From the NCBI RefSeq assembly GCF_008000995.1, contig NZ_CP042827.1, forward strand, positions 1-38,372: a stretch of 38,372 bases of DNA, read 5' to 3'. The position numbers and the translations under genes are program-made. This DNA comes from Ruania zhangjianzhongii. GTDB taxonomy: Bacteria; Actinomycetota; Actinomycetes; Actinomycetales; Beutenbergiaceae. Under the pieces are notes generated by a model that searched no databases, was not told where the DNA came from, and saw only the letters and a list, made by a program, of their open reading frames with translations. Positions 4,918-25,007 of the stretch are shown here, one piece after another (positions within the stretch are counted from its first letter, which is position 1; the number at the start of each line of letters is the position of its first letter).

Positions 4918-5328
4918 ATGTATGACACGGAACTGACGGTGGCGGGCAACCTGACCGCCGATCCTGATCTGCGATTCGCGCCAAGCGGCGCCGCGTCCGC
5001 CCGCTTCACCCTCGCCTCGACGCCGCGCGTGTTCGACTCCCGCACCGGGCGATGGGCAGATGGTGAGACTCTGTTCATTCGCTGCGTGGCGTGGCGTGAT
5101 CTGGCAGAGAATGCTGGAGAGTCGCTGTCCAAGGGAGTGCGGGTCTTGGCCCGTGGTCGCCTGCGTCAGCGCGAGTACGAGACATCGGCGGGGGAGCGTC
5201 GGCAGGTCGTGGAGCTGGAAGTCGATGAGTGTGGACCGTCGCTACGGTTTGCCACGACCTCGGTGAGCCGGTCCCGGCGGAATCCTTCCACCTTGAGTTC
5301 GGAATGGAGTTCTAACGGTGACCAGTGA
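4918..5328 (+). CDS. ssb: Single-stranded DNA-binding protein
   Basis: 136 residues with a typical OB fold: ELTVAGNLTADPDLRFAPSG at the N-terminus, then ARFTLAST, the FIRCVAWRDLAENA core and GVRVLARGRLRQREYET. The C-terminus (SSEWSSNGDQ) lacks the acidic DDDIPF-type tail that recruits host repair proteins, so it is a plasmid-type SSB that mainly coats single strands. It follows nrdH by 18 nt with a GGGGAGAGG site, and its last 11 nt overlap the next gene. It would protect the transferred strand during conjugation or replication. Confidence 0.9.
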   Translation: MYDTELTVAGNLTADPDLRFAPSGAASARFTLASTPRVFDSRTGRWADGETLFIRCVAWRDLAENAGESLSKGVRVLARGRLRQREYETSAGERRQVVELEVDECGPSLRFATTSVSRSRRNPSTLSSEWSSNGDQ

Positions 5329-6523
5329 TCCGCGTCCCCCGCTCTTTGGCGGCGCTGAGCGGGTGCAGTCCTTCCAGGAGGCCGCGCCAGCCCCACCGCT
5401 TTCGCCCTTCCCCGGGGCTGTACCCCAGCCGCCCGACGAATCTGAGGCGGTGCCCTCAGACTGGCAGCCTGACCCCGTTAACGTGCCACCGCAGTCGATG
5501 CGACCTGCTCCACACCAGGAGGCGGTCAGCGGCGGCGAGGCTCCTGCGACTCGCCGGGCGCGCCGTGCGGCCGAGCTGATGGAGCCCGACCCTGCAGCAT
5601 CGCAGCTCCCGTTGACGGGGTGGCGGCGGGCGGTGCGGACGATGACCTTCGGCTTGGCCTCACCTTCGCCCGATCCACGGGTGGTGGAGTGGCATGCTGA
5701 CCGGGCGGCCGTCAACGCCAACTTTCCGCGGCTGCTGACGGCCATGGTGGCGAACCCCAAGGGTGGTCGGGGCAAGACCCCGCTATCGCTGCTTCTGGCT
5801 GCCGCATTCGGGGAGCTGCGTGGCGGGGGAGTGTGCGCCTGGGACAACAACGAGACTCTGGGCACGATGGGAATCCGCACGGAGGTTGGGCCGTACCGGA
5901 CGACGGTTGTGGACCTGGTGGATGACCTGGACAGGTTCGAGCACGTACGTGCTCGACGTGGCGATCTCGGCCAATACACCCACCATCAGGCCGCCGGCCA
6001 TTTCGATGCGCTGATCTCAGATGAAGACCCGACTCGGATGGCGATGGTTGACCGGGAGCAGTTCGAGCGCATTCACGAGCTGCTCGGCCGGTTCTACAAC
6101 ATCATCATGATCGACACCGGCAACAACCCGAAGGCGGCGAACTTCGTGGCCGCCCTGGCGGCCTCGGACGTGTTGGTGATCCCGATCCAGTGGACTCGTG
6201 ACTCAGTCGTGACCGCCGGGCGACTGGTGGACCAGCTGCGCGAAGCCGGCCGGGAGGACTTGGTGGCCTCGGCCGTGACCGTGGTCTCGGACAAGGGCCA
6301 GTCCTTGAAAGCATCCCCGGAACAGGTGGCCTCGTGGCGGGAATGGTTCACCGACACCACCGGCAGCATCATCAACGTGCCCTTCGACCCGCACATCGCT
6401 GAGGACGGTGTGCTGCGCTGGGATGCGCTGCAGGAAGGCACCCAGAGAGCCCTCGTGCGGGTCGCGGCCGCGATCTCGCACGCGTTCAGTCACCGCGTTT
6501 CACAGACAGGAGTACGGCAGTGA
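5318..6523 (+). CDS. ParA/MinD-like ATPase of the transfer operon
   Basis: 401 residues. The first 110 are Pro/Ala-rich and probably disordered. A deviant Walker A, NPKGGRGKTPLS, follows at about residue 146, then the switch-like CAWDNNETLG and the Walker B-like IIMIDTGNNPKAANF, and a C-terminal helical part. It is a P-loop ATPase of the ParA/MinD class. Unlike most ParA proteins it has a proline after GKT and a long N-terminal extension. It sits in a transfer operon and not beside a centromere, so it probably positions or licenses the secretion apparatus. The GTG start at 5318 overlaps ssb, and the end overlaps the next gene as GTGA. The genuine partition ParA is encoded at the other end of the window. 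Confidence 0.8.
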   Translation: MTSDPRPPLFGGAERVQSFQEAAPAPPLSPFPGAVPQPPDESEAVPSDWQPDPVNVPPQSMRPAPHQEAVSGGEAPATRRARRAAELMEPDPAASQLPLTGWRRAVRTMTFGLASPSPDPRVVEWHADRAAVNANFPRLLTAMVANPKGGRGKTPLSLLLAAAFGELRGGGVCAWDNNETLGTMGIRTEVGPYRTTVVDLVDDLDRFEHVRARRGDLGQYTHHQAAGHFDALISDEDPTRMAMVDREQFERIHELLGRFYNIIMIDTGNNPKAANFVAALAASDVLVIPIQWTRDSVVTAGRLVDQLREAGREDLVASAVTVVSDKGQSLKASPEQVASWREWFTDTTGSIINVPFDPHIAEDGVLRWDALQEGTQRALVRVAAAISHAFSHRVSQTGVRQ

Positions 6524-6834
6524 TCGAGCCGATCATGATGGATATCTTGGCCAGCGGGAATCCCTTCGATGGCGTCTCACCAGACTTCGGACTGTGGGGA
6601 GGAGCGTTCACCGAAACGTGGCAGCGCCTGCTCGCCGGGGTGTGGGGTGTCGCCGTAGTCGTGACGGCATTCCTCGCGATCAAAGCAATCGTGTCGATGG
6701 CTAACGCCAAGGACGACAACCCGGCCATGTATCAGCAATCGAAGACCTCAGCACTGCGCACGGGTGCCGCCGTGATCGGACTACTGCTCCTTGGAGTCAT
6801 CTACACGGGCATCTTCGTCTTGACGGGGGTGTGA
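6520..6834 (+). CDS. Small two-TM transfer protein (VirB2/VirB3-like)
   Basis: 104 residues, starting with GTG at 6520 inside the previous stop (GTGA). Two membrane segments: about residues 38-60 (LLAGVWGVAVVVTAFLAI) and 80-103 (TGAAVIGLLLLGVIYTGIFV), with a short charged loop (NAKDDNPAMYQQSKTSALR) between. Size, topology and place in front of the VirB8- and VirB6-like genes match the small pilin-like or VirB3-like subunits of monoderm type IV secretion. Sequence alone does not separate VirB2 from VirB3. Confidence 0.65.
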   Translation: MIEPIMMDILASGNPFDGVSPDFGLWGGAFTETWQRLLAGVWGVAVVVTAFLAIKAIVSMANAKDDNPAMYQQSKTSALRTGAAVIGLLLLGVIYTGIFVLTGV

Positions 6835-7505
6835 TGAGCTCGTCGACGCCATTCCCGAAGCGACCCAAGTGGCCGCTGGTGACCGCGGGCGTGGTGGTCC
6901 TCGTGGTCGCCGCGCTCCTTGGTGGATGGTGGCTCGGCCGCGACCAAGGCGGTGACCCACCCGAGAACACCACCACGCCGCCGAGCCCCACCGACACCAC
7001 CGCCGCGGACGGGCAGGTCGACGGCTGTCTCGGAGGGCCCGACCGGACCCCTGAGATGGTGCTCGCCGCCCAAGAGCAAGCCGACGTCGCCTCGGACGAG
7101 GAGGGCGTTGCATTCGCCGCCTCACTCATGCGGTGGTTTTGGCAGGAGCCCTGGGCCGAACCTACGGATGCTCAGCGCACCGCGATCGTGGCCGAGCACG
7201 CGGATTCCAGCATCCCGGAACTGTTTGAGTCCGCTGCCGACTCGGTAGACGCAGACACCTCGAGGTGGGTCTCCACCAGCGGCGCCCTCTGGTACGTCGA
7301 GTCGTCTACGGCGGACGAATTGGTTGTGAGTCTAGCGCTGCTGCCGGTGATCGACGGGGAGTTAGCGACAGACTCCCGCATCCAAGCGACCCTGACGTTG
7401 ACGCGCTCTGACGGAGTATGGCGCTGGTCCGCCTTCGAAGCCCAGATGCGCGACTACGAGGACATGGAGTCGATCGGCACTGCCTTTACCAGCGGGTGCG
7501 GCTGA
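6834..7505 (+). CDS. VirB8-like single-pass transfer protein
   Basis: About 223 residues from ATG 6834, which overlaps the previous stop as TGATG (a GTG at 6831 is also possible). A cytoplasmic basic N-terminus, one membrane helix at about residues 15-36 (WPLVTAGVVVLVVAALLGGW), a Thr/Pro-rich linker, then an extracytoplasmic domain rich in Trp and acidic residues (RWFWQEPWAEP; WRWSAFEAQMRDYED). This topology and the NTF2-like look of the outer domain resemble VirB8/TcpC-type scaffold proteins. Two cysteines (CLGG; SGCG at the end) may form a disulfide outside the membrane, which fits an NrdH-like redoxin in the same operon, though NrdH itself would be cytoplasmic. Confidence 0.65.
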   Translation: MSSSTPFPKRPKWPLVTAGVVVLVVAALLGGWWLGRDQGGDPPENTTTPPSPTDTTAADGQVDGCLGGPDRTPEMVLAAQEQADVASDEEGVAFAASLMRWFWQEPWAEPTDAQRTAIVAEHADSSIPELFESAADSVDADTSRWVSTSGALWYVESSTADELVVSLALLPVIDGELATDSRIQATLTLTRSDGVWRWSAFEAQMRDYEDMESIGTAFTSGCG

Positions 7506-18146: not shown

Positions 18147-18848
18147 TTAGCTCCCCTCGGCCCAGTTCAGTCCGTGTAGTCGGAATGCCGTGACGAGTTC
18201 CGGATGATCGGGGGGCAGCGCCACGGGGCGGAGGTTGGACAGGTGGGGGCTGACGCTGGGGTCGCCGGCGTGCTCGAAGATCGCCCAGAGTTCGACCTCG
18301 TCGCCGTGGCGAGAGGCAAAGCGGACGCCGGCGACTTCGGTCGTGGCGTGCAGGTGCGTGGCGACATGCTGGGTCAGCTCCCGCGGTCGAGCCCGTCGTA
18401 GCGCGGCCGCGTCGAAGTCGGGCTGGCCGAGCCGGTAGGCGAGTGCGATGAACGTTGGCCGTAGAGCGGCGATCGACTCCGTCGCGGTGACGTCGCAGAA
18501 CGTGCCCCGCAGGGTGGCTGAGGCCGCCTCCCGGGGCTGCAGCCAGCTGTAGGGCACGTGGCCGGCCGGTGCAGTGGGATAGGCTTCGTCGTCCTCGATG
18601 CCGGCCATCTGCGCTGTCAGTGCGGGGTCTGGGCGGAAATGCGCAAGCACCTCCAGCAGGCAACCGAGCAGCGTCGATCCGGCGTAGGTGGTGCGGAAGA
18701 CGCCTCGGTGGTCATCCCACCGGCCGGGGAACCGGCCGTCAGTTCCGGCGAACTCCCAGCCGGCCCACGCCCAGGGGGCCGGCGCGTACCCGATCCTGTA
18801 GACCTGTTGGTCTACAGGGAGCAGGACCAGCTGAGGCGTTGCCGGCAC
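18147..18848 (-). CDS. RES-domain toxin (NAD+ degrading)
   Basis: 233 residues from GTG 18848, four bases after the antitoxin stop. RES features are clear: VYRIGYAP near the N-terminus, GRWDDHRGVF with Arg43, TTYAGSTLLGCLLEVLAHF with Tyr55 and Glu66 eleven residues apart, as in known RES toxins, and a late Ser-containing segment. RES toxins (MbcT, Res) use an Arg/Tyr/Glu/Ser site to break down NAD+, by phosphorolysis or hydrolysis, and stop growth. The gene order antitoxin-toxin and the short gap are typical. On a plasmid it would provide post-segregational killing or phage-triggered growth arrest. A longer frame begins upstream at 18947 but overlaps the antitoxin. Confidence 0.87.
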   Translation of the reverse strand: MPATPQLVLLPVDQQVYRIGYAPAPWAWAGWEFAGTDGRFPGRWDDHRGVFRTTYAGSTLLGCLLEVLAHFRPDPALTAQMAGIEDDEAYPTAPAGHVPYSWLQPREAASATLRGTFCDVTATESIAALRPTFIALAYRLGQPDFDAAALRRARPRELTQHVATHLHATTEVAGVRFASRHGDEVELWAIFEHAGDPSVSPHLSNLRPVALPPDHPELVTAFRLHGLNWAEGS

Positions 18849-18852
18849 GTGC

Positions 18853-19248
18853 CTAGCCAACGGCAGCGAAGGCTCGCGCGGCCGCGAGGACCAGCGGGCC
18901 GACCGTCGACAGGTCACCCTCGCGCAGCAGCCGCGCAGGGGCCACATCCTCCAGCTGGGGGTTCATGCCTTGGAACCACGCCTGCACCACGGCGGCGGTG
19001 TCTTTCTGACGCAACAGCGCTGTGATCTGGTAGACGGTGCGCAGCCGGTTGATTACCTCGGTCGACGGCTCCCGGGTACCTTCGGCCCACTGCCTGACCG
19101 CACGCGTCTCGGTCACCGAGCCCAGGTAGGCGACCAGCTTCGCACCCAGGCTCTCGCGCAGCCGCGTCACCAAGTCGGCGGTGCTGAGCCGCATCGACTC
19201 CTCGTAAGCACGAAGGTCCGCACGGGGCCCGCTCGTAGTCGTCGTCAT
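18853..19248 (-). CDS. Xre/MbcA/ParS-type antitoxin of the RES toxin
   Basis: 131 residues. An HTH-like N-terminal part (LVTRLRESLGAKLVAYLGSV; ETRAVRQWAEGTREPSTEVI) is followed by a C-terminal segment VVQAWFQGMNPQLEDVAPAR, then LLREGDLSTVGPLVLAAARA. The order 'W....NP.L....P..LL..G....V' is the toxin-binding C-terminus of MbcA/ParS/Xre antitoxins, whose tail plugs the RES NAD+ pocket. It should bind its own promoter; direct repeats spaced 12 bp apart (19298-19317) lie just upstream. Start ATG 19248 follows TGAGGAC, which is unusually close; the exact start is uncertain. Confidence 0.82.
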   Translation of the reverse strand: MTTTTSGPRADLRAYEESMRLSTADLVTRLRESLGAKLVAYLGSVTETRAVRQWAEGTREPSTEVINRLRTVYQITALLRQKDTAAVVQAWFQGMNPQLEDVAPARLLREGDLSTVGPLVLAAARAFAAVG

Positions 19249-22755: not shown

Positions 22756-23886
22756 CTAAAAGTCGCCCTTCGAGCGGTTGCAGGCGACGCACAGCATCTG
22801 GCAGTTCTCGGGGATGGTCCTCCCTCCCTTCGACCAAGGCACGATGTGGTCGGCATCCATCTCTTCGATACCGAACTTCTTTTTGCCGTCGCTGTTGCCG
22901 GGCGTCTTGCACCGGTCACCGTTGGCGCAAAGCCCTCGCTGCCTCTCGTACGCCTCGCGTCTCTGCCGGTCATCGAACTTCCGGATCTTCAAATGCCGTT
23001 CGTCCCCGTCGAGGACATATTCATAGATGCCGGGATGGGAATCCACGTCGAGGTCCTGCATTAACTCTGAGACTCGTGCTTCCATCGCGTCCGGGTCGTA
23101 CTCCGTCTCGCCGAACCGCCTGAACAGGTCGCCCCAGTCGACCCGCTTCATCTCCTTGCCTCGATACACGGAGAACGTGGCCATGACCCAGTCGATCACG
23201 GCCTGGAAGTGGTCCCAGAGCTCTTGGGCGTCCGGGTCGTGCTGGTGAACCTGCATATAATCTTTGATCTGGCCCGGGGACACCCAGTCGATCGCCTTCT
23301 CCAAGAGTTCTTGCCGGATCGGGCTCCCCGTAACGTACTTCGAAGCCAGTTGGTACGCGGGGCCGCCCGGACGGGAGAAGATCCGCTTCGCATGCGCCAA
23401 CCAGGGGCCCGTATAGATGGCGTTGCGTAATTCCTGTTCGGTGAGCGTCTCGCCAGCGATGTTGACGATCTCGAACCAGGCGAGCTTCTCCTCCTCGGTT
23501 CCCTCGCACAGGTACACCATTAGCTCGTAGTCGAGGATCTGCTGCCGTTGGGTCGGGGAGAGGTTGTGGAATCCCTTCGGGTTGCCGTCGACATCCACCG
23601 AGAAATGTTCGGCGACGTACTGGCAGAAACTGATCGTGCGTTGCTGGCCGTCCAGGACTTCGATGGTGCCGTCATCGTTCTGGGCCCAGTACATCACGTT
23701 GAGCGGGTACCCGTTCCTGATGGTGTTGATCACCAGGTCGCGCTGGGTGGTCTTGTAGACGAACTCACGCTGGTAGGGCGGGCGAACGTTCAGCAGCCCG
23801 TCGTAGGCGACCACCCCCTCCTCCTGATTGTCCACGAACCCGGCGGCCACCTCGCCAACAGTCACGCCGATCGGTTCGATCTTCAC
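22756..23886 (-). CDS. DUF262 (GmrS-like) and HNH endonuclease fusion
   Basis: 376 residues. N-terminal DUF262: RPPYQREFVY at 35-44, then EVLDGQQRTISF with the family's DGQQR at 79-83, which is related to ParB/Srx-type nucleotide-binding folds. The C-terminal HNH nuclease has C320 and C326, then DADHIVPWSKGG (344-355), N361, and C366-x2-C369, giving a zinc-stabilised beta-beta-alpha-metal site. The combination corresponds to a fused, short GmrSD-like enzyme; GmrSD is a type IV endonuclease with nucleotide-stimulated cutting. The GTG start at 23886 overlaps the methyltransferase stop by four bases (GTGA), so the two are coupled. The presence of a cognate methylase suggests restriction of unmodified DNA, unlike classic type IV enzymes. 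Confidence 0.85.
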   Translation of the reverse strand: MKIEPIGVTVGEVAAGFVDNQEEGVVAYDGLLNVRPPYQREFVYKTTQRDLVINTIRNGYPLNVMYWAQNDDGTIEVLDGQQRTISFCQYVAEHFSVDVDGNPKGFHNLSPTQRQQILDYELMVYLCEGTEEEKLAWFEIVNIAGETLTEQELRNAIYTGPWLAHAKRIFSRPGGPAYQLASKYVTGSPIRQELLEKAIDWVSPGQIKDYMQVHQHDPDAQELWDHFQAVIDWVMATFSVYRGKEMKRVDWGDLFRRFGETEYDPDAMEARVSELMQDLDVDSHPGIYEYVLDGDERHLKIRKFDDRQRREAYERQRGLCANGDRCKTPGNSDGKKKFGIEEMDADHIVPWSKGGRTIPENCQMLCVACNRSKGDF

Positions 23887-25007
23887 GAAACGCCCCCGAT
23901 CCGGCGGATGACGACCCGTTCGTAGACACCCCGGTAGCGGTCCTTGGCGATCGGCACAAAGAACTTCCCCGTGCCGCCGACCCGGTTGCCCTTCGCGGAC
24001 ACGTACTGGTCCGGCTCGGCGTACTTCGCCATCGGCTCGGCGAGCTTGGTGCTGATCCCGACGATCTCGAACTGTTCAGGGTTGTAACGGTCGAGGAACG
24101 TGATCGGCACCCCCATGTGCCCCTCGTAATCCATCGGAATGTCGGACGCCCTGTCCACGTCGATCCCGTCATAGTTCACGTAGGTCGGGTACTCCTCAGG
24201 CGAGTACCTCTTGTACAGCACCATGTTCTGATGCCGCCTCGTGGTCTCCAGGTTCGTGTACCAATAGACACGGCCCATGCTCTGGTACTTGACGCCGTCC
24301 TCGATCTTCCAGCGTTCCTTGGTCTTGATCGTGTATTCGTCCGGCACCCGGAACCACTTCGTTCCACCGTTCTCGTACCCGAACCACACCTTGTTCTGGA
24401 CGAAGAGCGGAAAGATCGAGGAGTATTTGGCCGCATTCTGGTCCCCGAGCACCAGGAACTGCTTGCCGTGGTCGATCAGCTGGGCGATGAACTCCCGGAA
24501 CAGGCTGAATGGAGGGTTGGTAACGACGACGTCGGCCTCCTCGAGAAGTTCGATGGCCTCGCGGCTCCGGAAATCACCATCGCCCTTCAGTGGAGTCATC
24601 ACGTTCGCATCGTGGCGAAGGAGGTGCTCGACGTCGCTCAGGTCGATCGCGCCGTCATCGTTACGGTCGGGCACCTCGCTGATCTCCACCTTGAACACGT
24701 CGCGGGGACGTTCTGCCTGCAACCCGGCCGCGTCGAACAGGGAGAGTTGCTGACCGGTGATCGGCGAGCCGGCGTAGGAGGTTGCGCTCAACTTCCGCAG
24801 GCCGAGCTGGTTGAAGTTCATCGCGAAGAACTTGAAGAAGTTGCTCTCGAACGGGTCGTCGCAGTTGCAGAACACAGTCTTGCCCTTGAACTGAGGGCGG
24901 TAGTGCCGAAGCTCGGCCTCGATGTCGACAAGTTGCGTGTACCACTCGTCCAGAGCGCTCCGGTTGCGCGCACTCAGCGCCTCGTTGCTAGCCAATCCTT
25001 GCTCCAC
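23883..25007 (-). CDS. EcoRI-family adenine-specific DNA methyltransferase
   Basis: 374 residues from GTG 25007. It shows the EcoRI-methylase family pattern: FCNCDDPFESNFFKFFAMNF at 46-65, then LRKLSATSYAG, and the catalytic motif IV NPPF at 164-167 (VVVTNPPFSLFREF). It would transfer a methyl group from AdoMet to N6 of adenine in its site. The sequence specificity cannot be read from the protein. Downstream and overlapping is the DUF262-HNH gene, and both are on the minus strand. It is 139 bases from the stop of the relaxase gene, and I saw no clear ribosome-binding site at the correct distance. Confidence 0.87.
   Translation of the reverse strand: MEQGLASNEALSARNRSALDEWYTQLVDIEAELRHYRPQFKGKTVFCNCDDPFESNFFKFFAMNFNQLGLRKLSATSYAGSPITGQQLSLFDAAGLQAERPRDVFKVEISEVPDRNDDGAIDLSDVEHLLRHDANVMTPLKGDGDFRSREAIELLEEADVVVTNPPFSLFREFIAQLIDHGKQFLVLGDQNAAKYSSIFPLFVQNKVWFGYENGGTKWFRVPDEYTIKTKERWKIEDGVKYQSMGRVYWYTNLETTRRHQNMVLYKRYSPEEYPTYVNYDGIDVDRASDIPMDYEGHMGVPITFLDRYNPEQFEIVGISTKLAEPMAKYAEPDQYVSAKGNRVGGTGKFFVPIAKDRYRGVYERVVIRRIGGVS

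Follow-up and report, generated by a model that had tools for sequence, protein, structure and literature searches.

A swappable segment in an EcoRI-family methylase may set the target of a conserved DUF262-HNH nuclease partner

Introduction

How does a nuclease built like the enzymes that attack modified DNA distinguish self from non-self when its partner gene encodes a base methylase? The question is raised by a contig of Ruania zhangjianzhongii, which we analysed in its entirety (38,372 bases, hereafter the window) and which is one of two contigs in a 5.1 Mb genome. Its minus strand carries two overlapping genes, the first for an adenine DNA methyltransferase of the EcoRI_methylase family (M) and the second for a protein that joins a DUF262 (GmrSD_N) domain to a C-terminal HNH nuclease (R). 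An earlier note on this DNA had suggested a two-gene restriction system and had called the union of a GmrSD-type domain with a cognate adenine methylase non-standard. This union does set the pair apart from the GmrSD/BrxU enzymes that have been characterised, whose substrate is modified DNA (PMC12707154, PMC10952713). The note's interpretation survives in part: the pair is real and unusual for GmrSD, and of the mechanisms it offered, nucleotide-dependent cutting and methylation as a licence or mark of self may each hold. But annotation already recognises the pair, PADLOC assigning both proteins to type II, and two features went unnoticed, an exchangeable cassette within M and the membership of EcoRI's own methylase in the same family. 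Together these two features move the likely logic from an R that reads its own site to an M whose cassette decides for both. The evolutionary pattern that we describe below argues that specificity in these systems lives in the methylase.

Results

A methylase gene overlaps a DUF262-HNH gene

The features of the pair are as follows.

23883..25007, minus strand: M, adenine DNA methyltransferase of the EcoRI_methylase family, 374 residues, gene 1 of the pair (PF13651, E = 5.5e-131; PADLOC MTase_II PDLC03297, E = 7.1e-112)
24507..24518, minus strand: NPPF catalytic motif of M, residues 164-167, invariant in 60 aligned M sequences
24252..24386, minus strand: exchangeable hypervariable cassette of M, residues 208-252, a proposed target-recognition segment, from comparisons among M sequences
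23883..23886, minus strand: four-base GTGA overlap of the M stop and the R start, from the sequence
22756..23886, minus strand: R, DUF262 (GmrSD_N) with a C-terminal HNH nuclease, 376 residues, gene 2 of the pair (Pfam)
23413..23787, minus strand: DUF262/GmrSD_N domain of R, residues 34-158, with QR at 39-40, DGQQR at 79-83 and FxxxN at 138-142 (Pfam; motifs in 94 of 94 other R sequences)
22762..22881, minus strand: HNH domain of R, residues 336-375, with presumed catalytic residues D346, H347, N361 and N370 (Pfam; residues in 94 of 94 other R sequences)

M reads from 25007 to 23883 and R from 23886 to 22756, both from GTG starts, and the TGA stop of M lies inside the GTGA at the start of R (...TCGTGAAG...), an arrangement that suggests translational coupling. 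Both open reading frames and their Pfam matches agree with the earlier description of an NPPF-bearing methylase that overlaps a DUF262-HNH protein by four bases. The EcoRI_methylase profile covers residues 13-369 of M, and the matches of R are to PF03235 (GmrSD_N/DUF262, E = 9.5e-18) and PF01844 (HNH, E = 1.2e-11). These are the sole families that R matches at E <= 0.01: at that threshold neither a helicase nor DUF1524 (PF07510), which GmrSD usually has as its second domain, was found, DUF1524 being likewise unmatched in the relatives L002, L008 and L099, and Pfam gave no match of R to the R.EcoRI family, PF02963. The QR, DGQQR and FxxxN motifs and the D-H-N-N residues of the HNH domain are identical in all 94 other R sequences, 17 of which were found without the use of motif patterns. 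The HNH domain matches the folds of AcCas9, McrA and a Geobacter HNH enzyme, and the best structural match for R is BrxU.

PADLOC classes both proteins as type II, R as a restriction endonuclease (PDLC03418, E = 2.3e-125) and M as a methyltransferase, the latter by a model, PDLC03297, that also matches M.EcoRI of an Escherichia coli plasmid (L107). Both parts are therefore already known to annotation, and what appears to be new is the question of how they work together; we found no paper describing the pair in a search that lay outside REBASE and most subscription papers.

The pair is a widely conserved unit

M and R are coupled far beyond chance and form a widely conserved restriction-modification-like unit. 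In even samples of 396 genomes from the window's phylum and 277 from the phylum of a second locus (L020), every full-length R (8/8 and 17/17, 25/25 in all) is preceded on its own strand by M sequence within 1.2 kb; the distance is at most 0.2 kb in 24 of them, and in the remaining one (G398) it is 1.2 kb and includes an intervening gene. By contrast, none of nine matches to DUF262 only (75-86 bits) has an M nearby (0/9 vs 25/25, Fisher p = 2e-8). Three of these 25 pairs have an M that is incomplete or carries a frameshift (G671:C89, at a contig end, G671:C145 and G568), and in one (G616:C100) R contains a stop. The candidate two-gene system of the earlier note is thus a real unit, and its proposed check of neighbours in other genomes found regular co-occurrence and not the rarity that would have counted against the pair.

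The same association holds in sets of close matches to R. In the best 80 of at least 500 confirmed R matches on genome contigs, 77 have M sequence at the same locus. At L040, on the assumption that the locus belongs to contig C1 of its genome, M is found some 7.8 kb upstream, and at L066 it is on a different contig; the only locus with no M in its own genome at E 1e-5 is L018 (Lachnospiraceae), where R (5989-7080) is itself broken by a stop codon. The best 80 of 167 viral matches comprise 62 complete pairs in the order M then R and four in the order R then M, ten loci with an incomplete M (seven at a contig end; L155, L158 and L165 inside the contig), two in which the contig end truncates R and two with no room for M. 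The annotated genome of Flavobacterium phage laban6-1 includes the pair. On plasmids, R is matched in 103 records, 41 of which cover 80% or more of the protein, and an EcoRI-family M is found in the same record for 37 of the 40 listed; the other three are from E. faecium and could not be scored, 35 M matches being outside those listed. With gene starts assigned by script, 33 of 61 complete M-then-R pairs on genome contigs overlap, 21 of these by four bases, and 51 lie within 24 bases. Distances among M sequences track those among R sequences (r = 0.72 for 77 pairs, where the highest of 2000 null values is 0.34), and the pair recurs across genomes labelled with more than a dozen phyla.

The two genes do not always stand alone. 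Extra genes lie between M and R at the loci L020, L021 and L030 (all 5021-5950), at L062 (5134-5997) and at L058 (783-1601), and by eye these encode a Fic-like protein and a DinD/BRO-like protein; in an Enterococcus dispar plasmid (L006:61-4699) a predicted optrA lies between the two. A Lactiplantibacillus plasmid (L108:2180-4282) encodes an EcoRI-family methylase (PF13651) fused to a C-5 cytosine methylase (PF00145), and a Corynebacterium glutamicum control genome has matches to both PF13651 and PF03235.

M carries a cassette that is exchanged among backbones

When M.EcoRI is aligned with its relatives, a block between the motifs W-x-G and W-[FYL]-T is replaced wholesale among close relatives. 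This cassette of about 45 residues corresponds to residues 208-252 of the window's M and 185-224 of M.EcoRI. We followed it through 130 non-redundant M sequences linked to DUF262-HNH proteins, drawn from 143 pairs by dropping any whose R is at least 93% identical to that of a kept one. Its identity is nearly independent of that of the rest of M (r = 0.21, the lowest of 13 windows along the protein, the other 12 giving 0.42-0.67), and its mean identity, 0.25, is likewise the lowest of the 13. R, divided into 17 windows, gives r values of 0.54-0.72, and none of its windows behaves like the cassette.

Clustered at 50% average identity, the cassettes fall into 34 groups, 15 of them with at least two members. 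The 11 alleles with at least three members, EcoRI-linked sequences included, require 51 changes when mapped on an M tree that excludes the cassette (109 sequences; three shuffles gave 73-76) and 54 on a tree of R (103 sequences). Exchange is visible in both directions: 33 pairs of M combine a backbone identity above 0.72 with a cassette identity below 0.3 (in L033 and L046, for example, backbone 0.82, cassette 0.23 and R 0.82), and 45 pairs share cassettes at more than 0.7 on backbones below 0.45. The cassette reassorts among M backbones, with no obvious counterpart in R, and we infer that it is the target-recognition segment of M. For M.EcoRI, specificity has been tied to His235 and Cys223, residues on which our literature search found no paper.

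EcoRI's methylase belongs to the family, with its cassette frozen

The E. coli plasmid locus L107 encodes a 277-residue PF02963 protein (E = 1e-138) and a 326-residue PF13651-type protein, and these sizes agree with those of R.EcoRI and M.EcoRI in the literature (PMC4081073). With a second R.EcoRI locus, L094 (PF02963, E = 4e-140), and the plasmid loci L110, L111, L112 and L114, this gives six EcoRI-linked M sequences. In trees that are unrooted and have no outgroup, the six form a single clade (100/99) whose sister is first L062 (100/99) and then L064 plus L084 (100/99), all three DUF262-HNH-linked and all three within one nine-member R clade (support 90 in a quick tree). The nesting of the EcoRI clade in wider groups is well supported in an 87-row tree (98/94, 99/99) and weak in an 89-row tree (bootstrap 61-66), the long-branched L099 and L108 having been dropped between the two. 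DUF262-linked M sequences of a deep clade are 0.38-0.51 identical to that of L107, against 0.67 for L062, and the same deep five-member clade appears in the R tree (support 100, quick tree). Because a midpoint drawing, the larger divergence among DUF262-linked M sequences and the matching deep clade in R all point the same way, EcoRI appears to be a late branch of this family and R.EcoRI a newcomer as partner. R.EcoRI too has switched partners: its relatives at L113 and L115 adjoin annotated methylases, and the EcoRI-family M profile has no match at either locus at 1e-5.

The cassette is frozen at one allele where the partner is R.EcoRI. Among the six EcoRI-linked M sequences its mean identity (0.785) exceeds that of the backbone (0.622) and no pair of the 15 falls below 0.5, whereas of the DUF262-linked pairs whose backbones span that range, 1877 of 2186 do. 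None of 2000 random sixes matched for backbone identity reaches the EcoRI cassette mean (maximum 0.58), nor does any of the 74 nearest-neighbour sixes whose backbone identity is at least as high (maximum 0.62). Across 130 nearest-neighbour sixes the cassettes are never more alike than the backbones. The allele carried by the EcoRI-linked methylases also occurs in six DUF262-linked ones; the window's own cassette is 25% identical to that of M.EcoRI, and its allele recurs at L012.

Avoidance of palindromic sites in the DNA of 80 relatives was considered as a further line of support and dropped as uninformative: at the 17 loci nearest the EcoRI-linked M, GAATTC ranks 36th of 64 six-base palindromes (37 observed, 46.8 expected), no special lack.

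M can be broken beside an intact R

An intact R stands beside a broken M at eight of 97 non-viral R loci (L005, L023, L032, L061, L073, L079, L097 and L098), and the reverse, a broken R with an intact M, occurs at two (L063 and L106). The break junctions were inspected at all of the eight except L098. At L061 (5634) and L097 (1351) G8 and G10 runs lie exactly at the frame change in M; G or C runs of at least eight number two in 107.9 kb of M, none in 113 kb of R and three in 828 kb elsewhere. Phase variation of M is possible at these two loci, and type III mod genes, to which such G-tract breaks can be likened, are phase-variable (PMC8125046). In a Rothia locus (L079:5306) M has an in-frame TAG at a consensus Glu position ahead of NPPF, with R uninterrupted. 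The in-frame TGA codons of two Gracilibacteria loci (L028 and L029) we take to reflect a code in which TGA specifies glycine, and these were not counted as breaks. A simple rule by which R is lethal without M is weakened by the eight loci, and we make no claim of toxicity.

The pair lies on a probable conjugative plasmid

Pfam and annotation identify a TrwC-type relaxase, a type IV secretion system coupling protein, an M23 peptidase, SSB and a ParA-like protein among the genes of the window, and because relaxase, coupling protein, SSB and ParA-like genes are present, the contig is probably a conjugative plasmid. The pair sits in a stretch of low GC (about 0.61-0.63 from 19 to 25 kb, and 0.64-0.72 elsewhere on the contig), near a RES-domain gene (18147-19248, PF08808, E = 8.4e-08) and three open reading frames that have no Pfam match. 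The open reading frame upstream of the RES-domain gene overlaps it, and the two are possibly a toxin-antitoxin pair. M is the sole PF13651 match in the R. zhangjianzhongii genome; the other contig encodes a second DUF262 protein (L010, G000:C2:748501-749214), a 678-residue frame with no HNH match.

Discussion

A swappable recognition segment beside a steady nuclease is expected where a methylase steers the nuclease, as it does in type I and type III systems, or where the methyl mark is all that the nuclease reads. That the cassette of M can be swapped alone speaks mostly against an R that reads its own site; R.EcoRI does read its own site, and there the cassette is frozen. We propose that the cassette of M sets the target for both methylation and cutting, in a manner akin to type III systems, with R as a nucleoside triphosphate (NTP)-dependent HNH effector, a model whose chances of being right and of being wrong we judge to be about equal. 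M would methylate adenine (at N6, by its family) in a short site picked by the cassette of about 45 residues, and so mark self. R, having no recognition cassette of its own, would act with M, either in complex with it or recruited by an M that sits at an unmethylated site, and its HNH domain would cut or nick under the control of NTP binding or hydrolysis by DUF262. R alone would be largely inert, which could explain how an intact R can persist beside an M that is broken or phase-varied. The recognition role of the cassette, the physical following of M by R, the NTP dependence and the cleavage are inferred in this model.

The nearest parallel is with type III Mod/Res systems, whose features we take from one account (PMC8125046). 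Both are two-gene systems in which the methylase has an exchangeable central segment between conserved flanks and the nuclease has no evident recognition segment, and both may switch by repeat tracts, as suggested here by two loci (L061 and L097). They differ in that M belongs to PF13651, its cassette spans just some 45 residues, and R, which has no helicase match, carries a GmrSD-type NTPase of the ParB/Srx fold joined to HNH in place of a helicase-nuclease. LlaJI, with its McrBC-like subunits, offers a precedent: there an NTPase engine resembling those of type IV enzymes is aimed at unmethylated DNA in a system that methylases protect, although that engine is McrB/McrC-like and works with two methyltransferases, in contrast to the DUF262-HNH protein and single EcoRI-family M described here (PMC1459862).

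Several observations weigh against the proposal that M directs R. The EcoRI-linked methylases are one clade, so that the freezing of their cassette is a single evolutionary event, and sequencing errors may account for some of the broken M genes, as another genetic code may for the TGA at L073. The assignment of the cassette as the recognition segment is indirect; a PDB profile search found no structure of the EcoRI_methylase family. R also depends slightly on the cassette: given the M backbone, cassette identity and whole-R identity retain a partial r of 0.14, and at backbone identities above 0.62 R identity is 0.71 in same-cassette pairs (n = 63) and 0.64 in different-cassette pairs (n = 373), although the former also have closer backbones (0.71 vs 0.67). 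In cassette-swapped pairs R residues 204-211 differ by 0.081, against a 95% point of 0.068 in label shuffles, the pairs being non-independent. Physical contact between M and R is unsupported, the top coupling between their windows (75-115 in M.EcoRI numbering with R 68-79, r = 0.30) lying away from the cassette. To these may be added the plain type II labels that PADLOC gives both proteins, and the ability of an SspE-like reader of N6-methyladenine to account for most of the same facts.

Window coupling as such was dropped as evidence of contact: its best partial r was 0.216 among several thousand window pairs (the 0.30 comes from a second version), it falls off the cassette, and it may reflect the deep clade split. 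As a separate observation made by eye, M residues of about 116-135 (DRNDDGAIDLSDVE) have the look of an EF-hand or dockerin loop that the window's M shares with some relatives and that others lack, and the region around this stretch is the one with the strongest coupling to R 68-79.

SspE resembles R in joining a DUF262-type domain with DGQQR to a C-terminal nuclease, and a licensing scheme of its kind would leave the cassette of M free to change: the DUF262 domain of R would read N6-methyladenine in any or a loose context, and methylated self would stimulate its NTPase and switch or release R to nick or cut an unmodified invader. Such a scheme requires a methyladenine reader with little sequence preference, and Dam-type N6-methyladenine, which is widespread, would confuse it. 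The SspABCD-SspE system itself relies on phosphorothioation and not on base methylation by one EcoRI-family enzyme, and R has no DUF1524 match; the annotated flanks examined show M in place of ssp genes, for which no aimed search was made. We regard licensing of this kind as rather unlikely, if a serious candidate.

We consider it improbable that the pair is a classical type II system, in which R alone would recognise the site of M and cut it when unmethylated, M would block cutting, and DUF262 would be a DNA-binding platform. The PADLOC labels, the presence of M sequence near every full-length R in the genome samples (25/25) and the weak cassette dependence of R (partial r 0.14; R 204-211) fit this idea, as does EcoRI itself, whose methylase shares the family and PADLOC model of M and guards GAATTC sites from a classical type II nuclease (PMC4081073). 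EcoRI differs, however, in its nuclease (PF02963 and not DUF262-HNH), in its gene order (R then M at L107, L110, L112 and L114, against M then R in the window) and in a cassette that is frozen in its clade and exchangeable in DUF262-linked methylases. The cassette changes while R stays alike (R 82% identical with a cassette 23% identical, for example), no window of R acts as a recognition segment, and an intact R beside a broken M, which should kill, is seen at eight non-viral loci. The NTPase motifs of R are also invariant, although type II enzymes do not require NTP. A type IV nuclease that cuts foreign modified DNA in the fashion of GmrSD, with M as an accessory in a separate role such as anti-restriction or masking, seems very improbable to us. 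R does share with GmrSD/BrxU a DUF262 domain with QR, DGQQR and FxxxN and a C-terminal nuclease of the HNH kind, with BrxU its closest fold, and the GmrSD family acts on modified cytosine (PMC12707154). Such enzymes nonetheless need no partner, whereas R is coupled to a methylase (25/25 full-length R vs 0/9 DUF262-only matches) by a recurring start-stop overlap; its HNH is of PF01844 and not DUF1524, which is unmatched, and it has 376 residues against 580 in the BrxU chain. The probability left beyond M-directed cutting and these three alternatives falls to something else.

The fuller proposal, in which a single EcoRI-family methylase programs, through a swappable cassette of about 45 residues, an NTP-gated DUF262-HNH nuclease without specificity of its own, and in which EcoRI is a late offshoot captured by an unrelated, self-reading nuclease and then frozen at the GAATTC allele, is tentative, and we would sooner expect some part of it to fail than all of it to hold. 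We found no description of such a restriction-modification type in the literature searched, within the bounds given above for REBASE and subscription papers. If it is true, the M proteins of L062 and L007, which carry the EcoRI allele, would methylate GAATTC and direct the DUF262-HNH enzyme there. The pair would be a compact, programmable restriction system of 2.25 kb, spread across bacteria, plasmids and phages, in which the logic of type III systems is joined to a nuclease engine of the GmrSD/SspE kind. The question of how a DUF262 nuclease beside a base methylase tells self from non-self would become one of cassette exchange, and EcoRI, the best known of restriction systems, would gain an evolutionary setting, within a methylase family normally partnered by something other than a type II enzyme.

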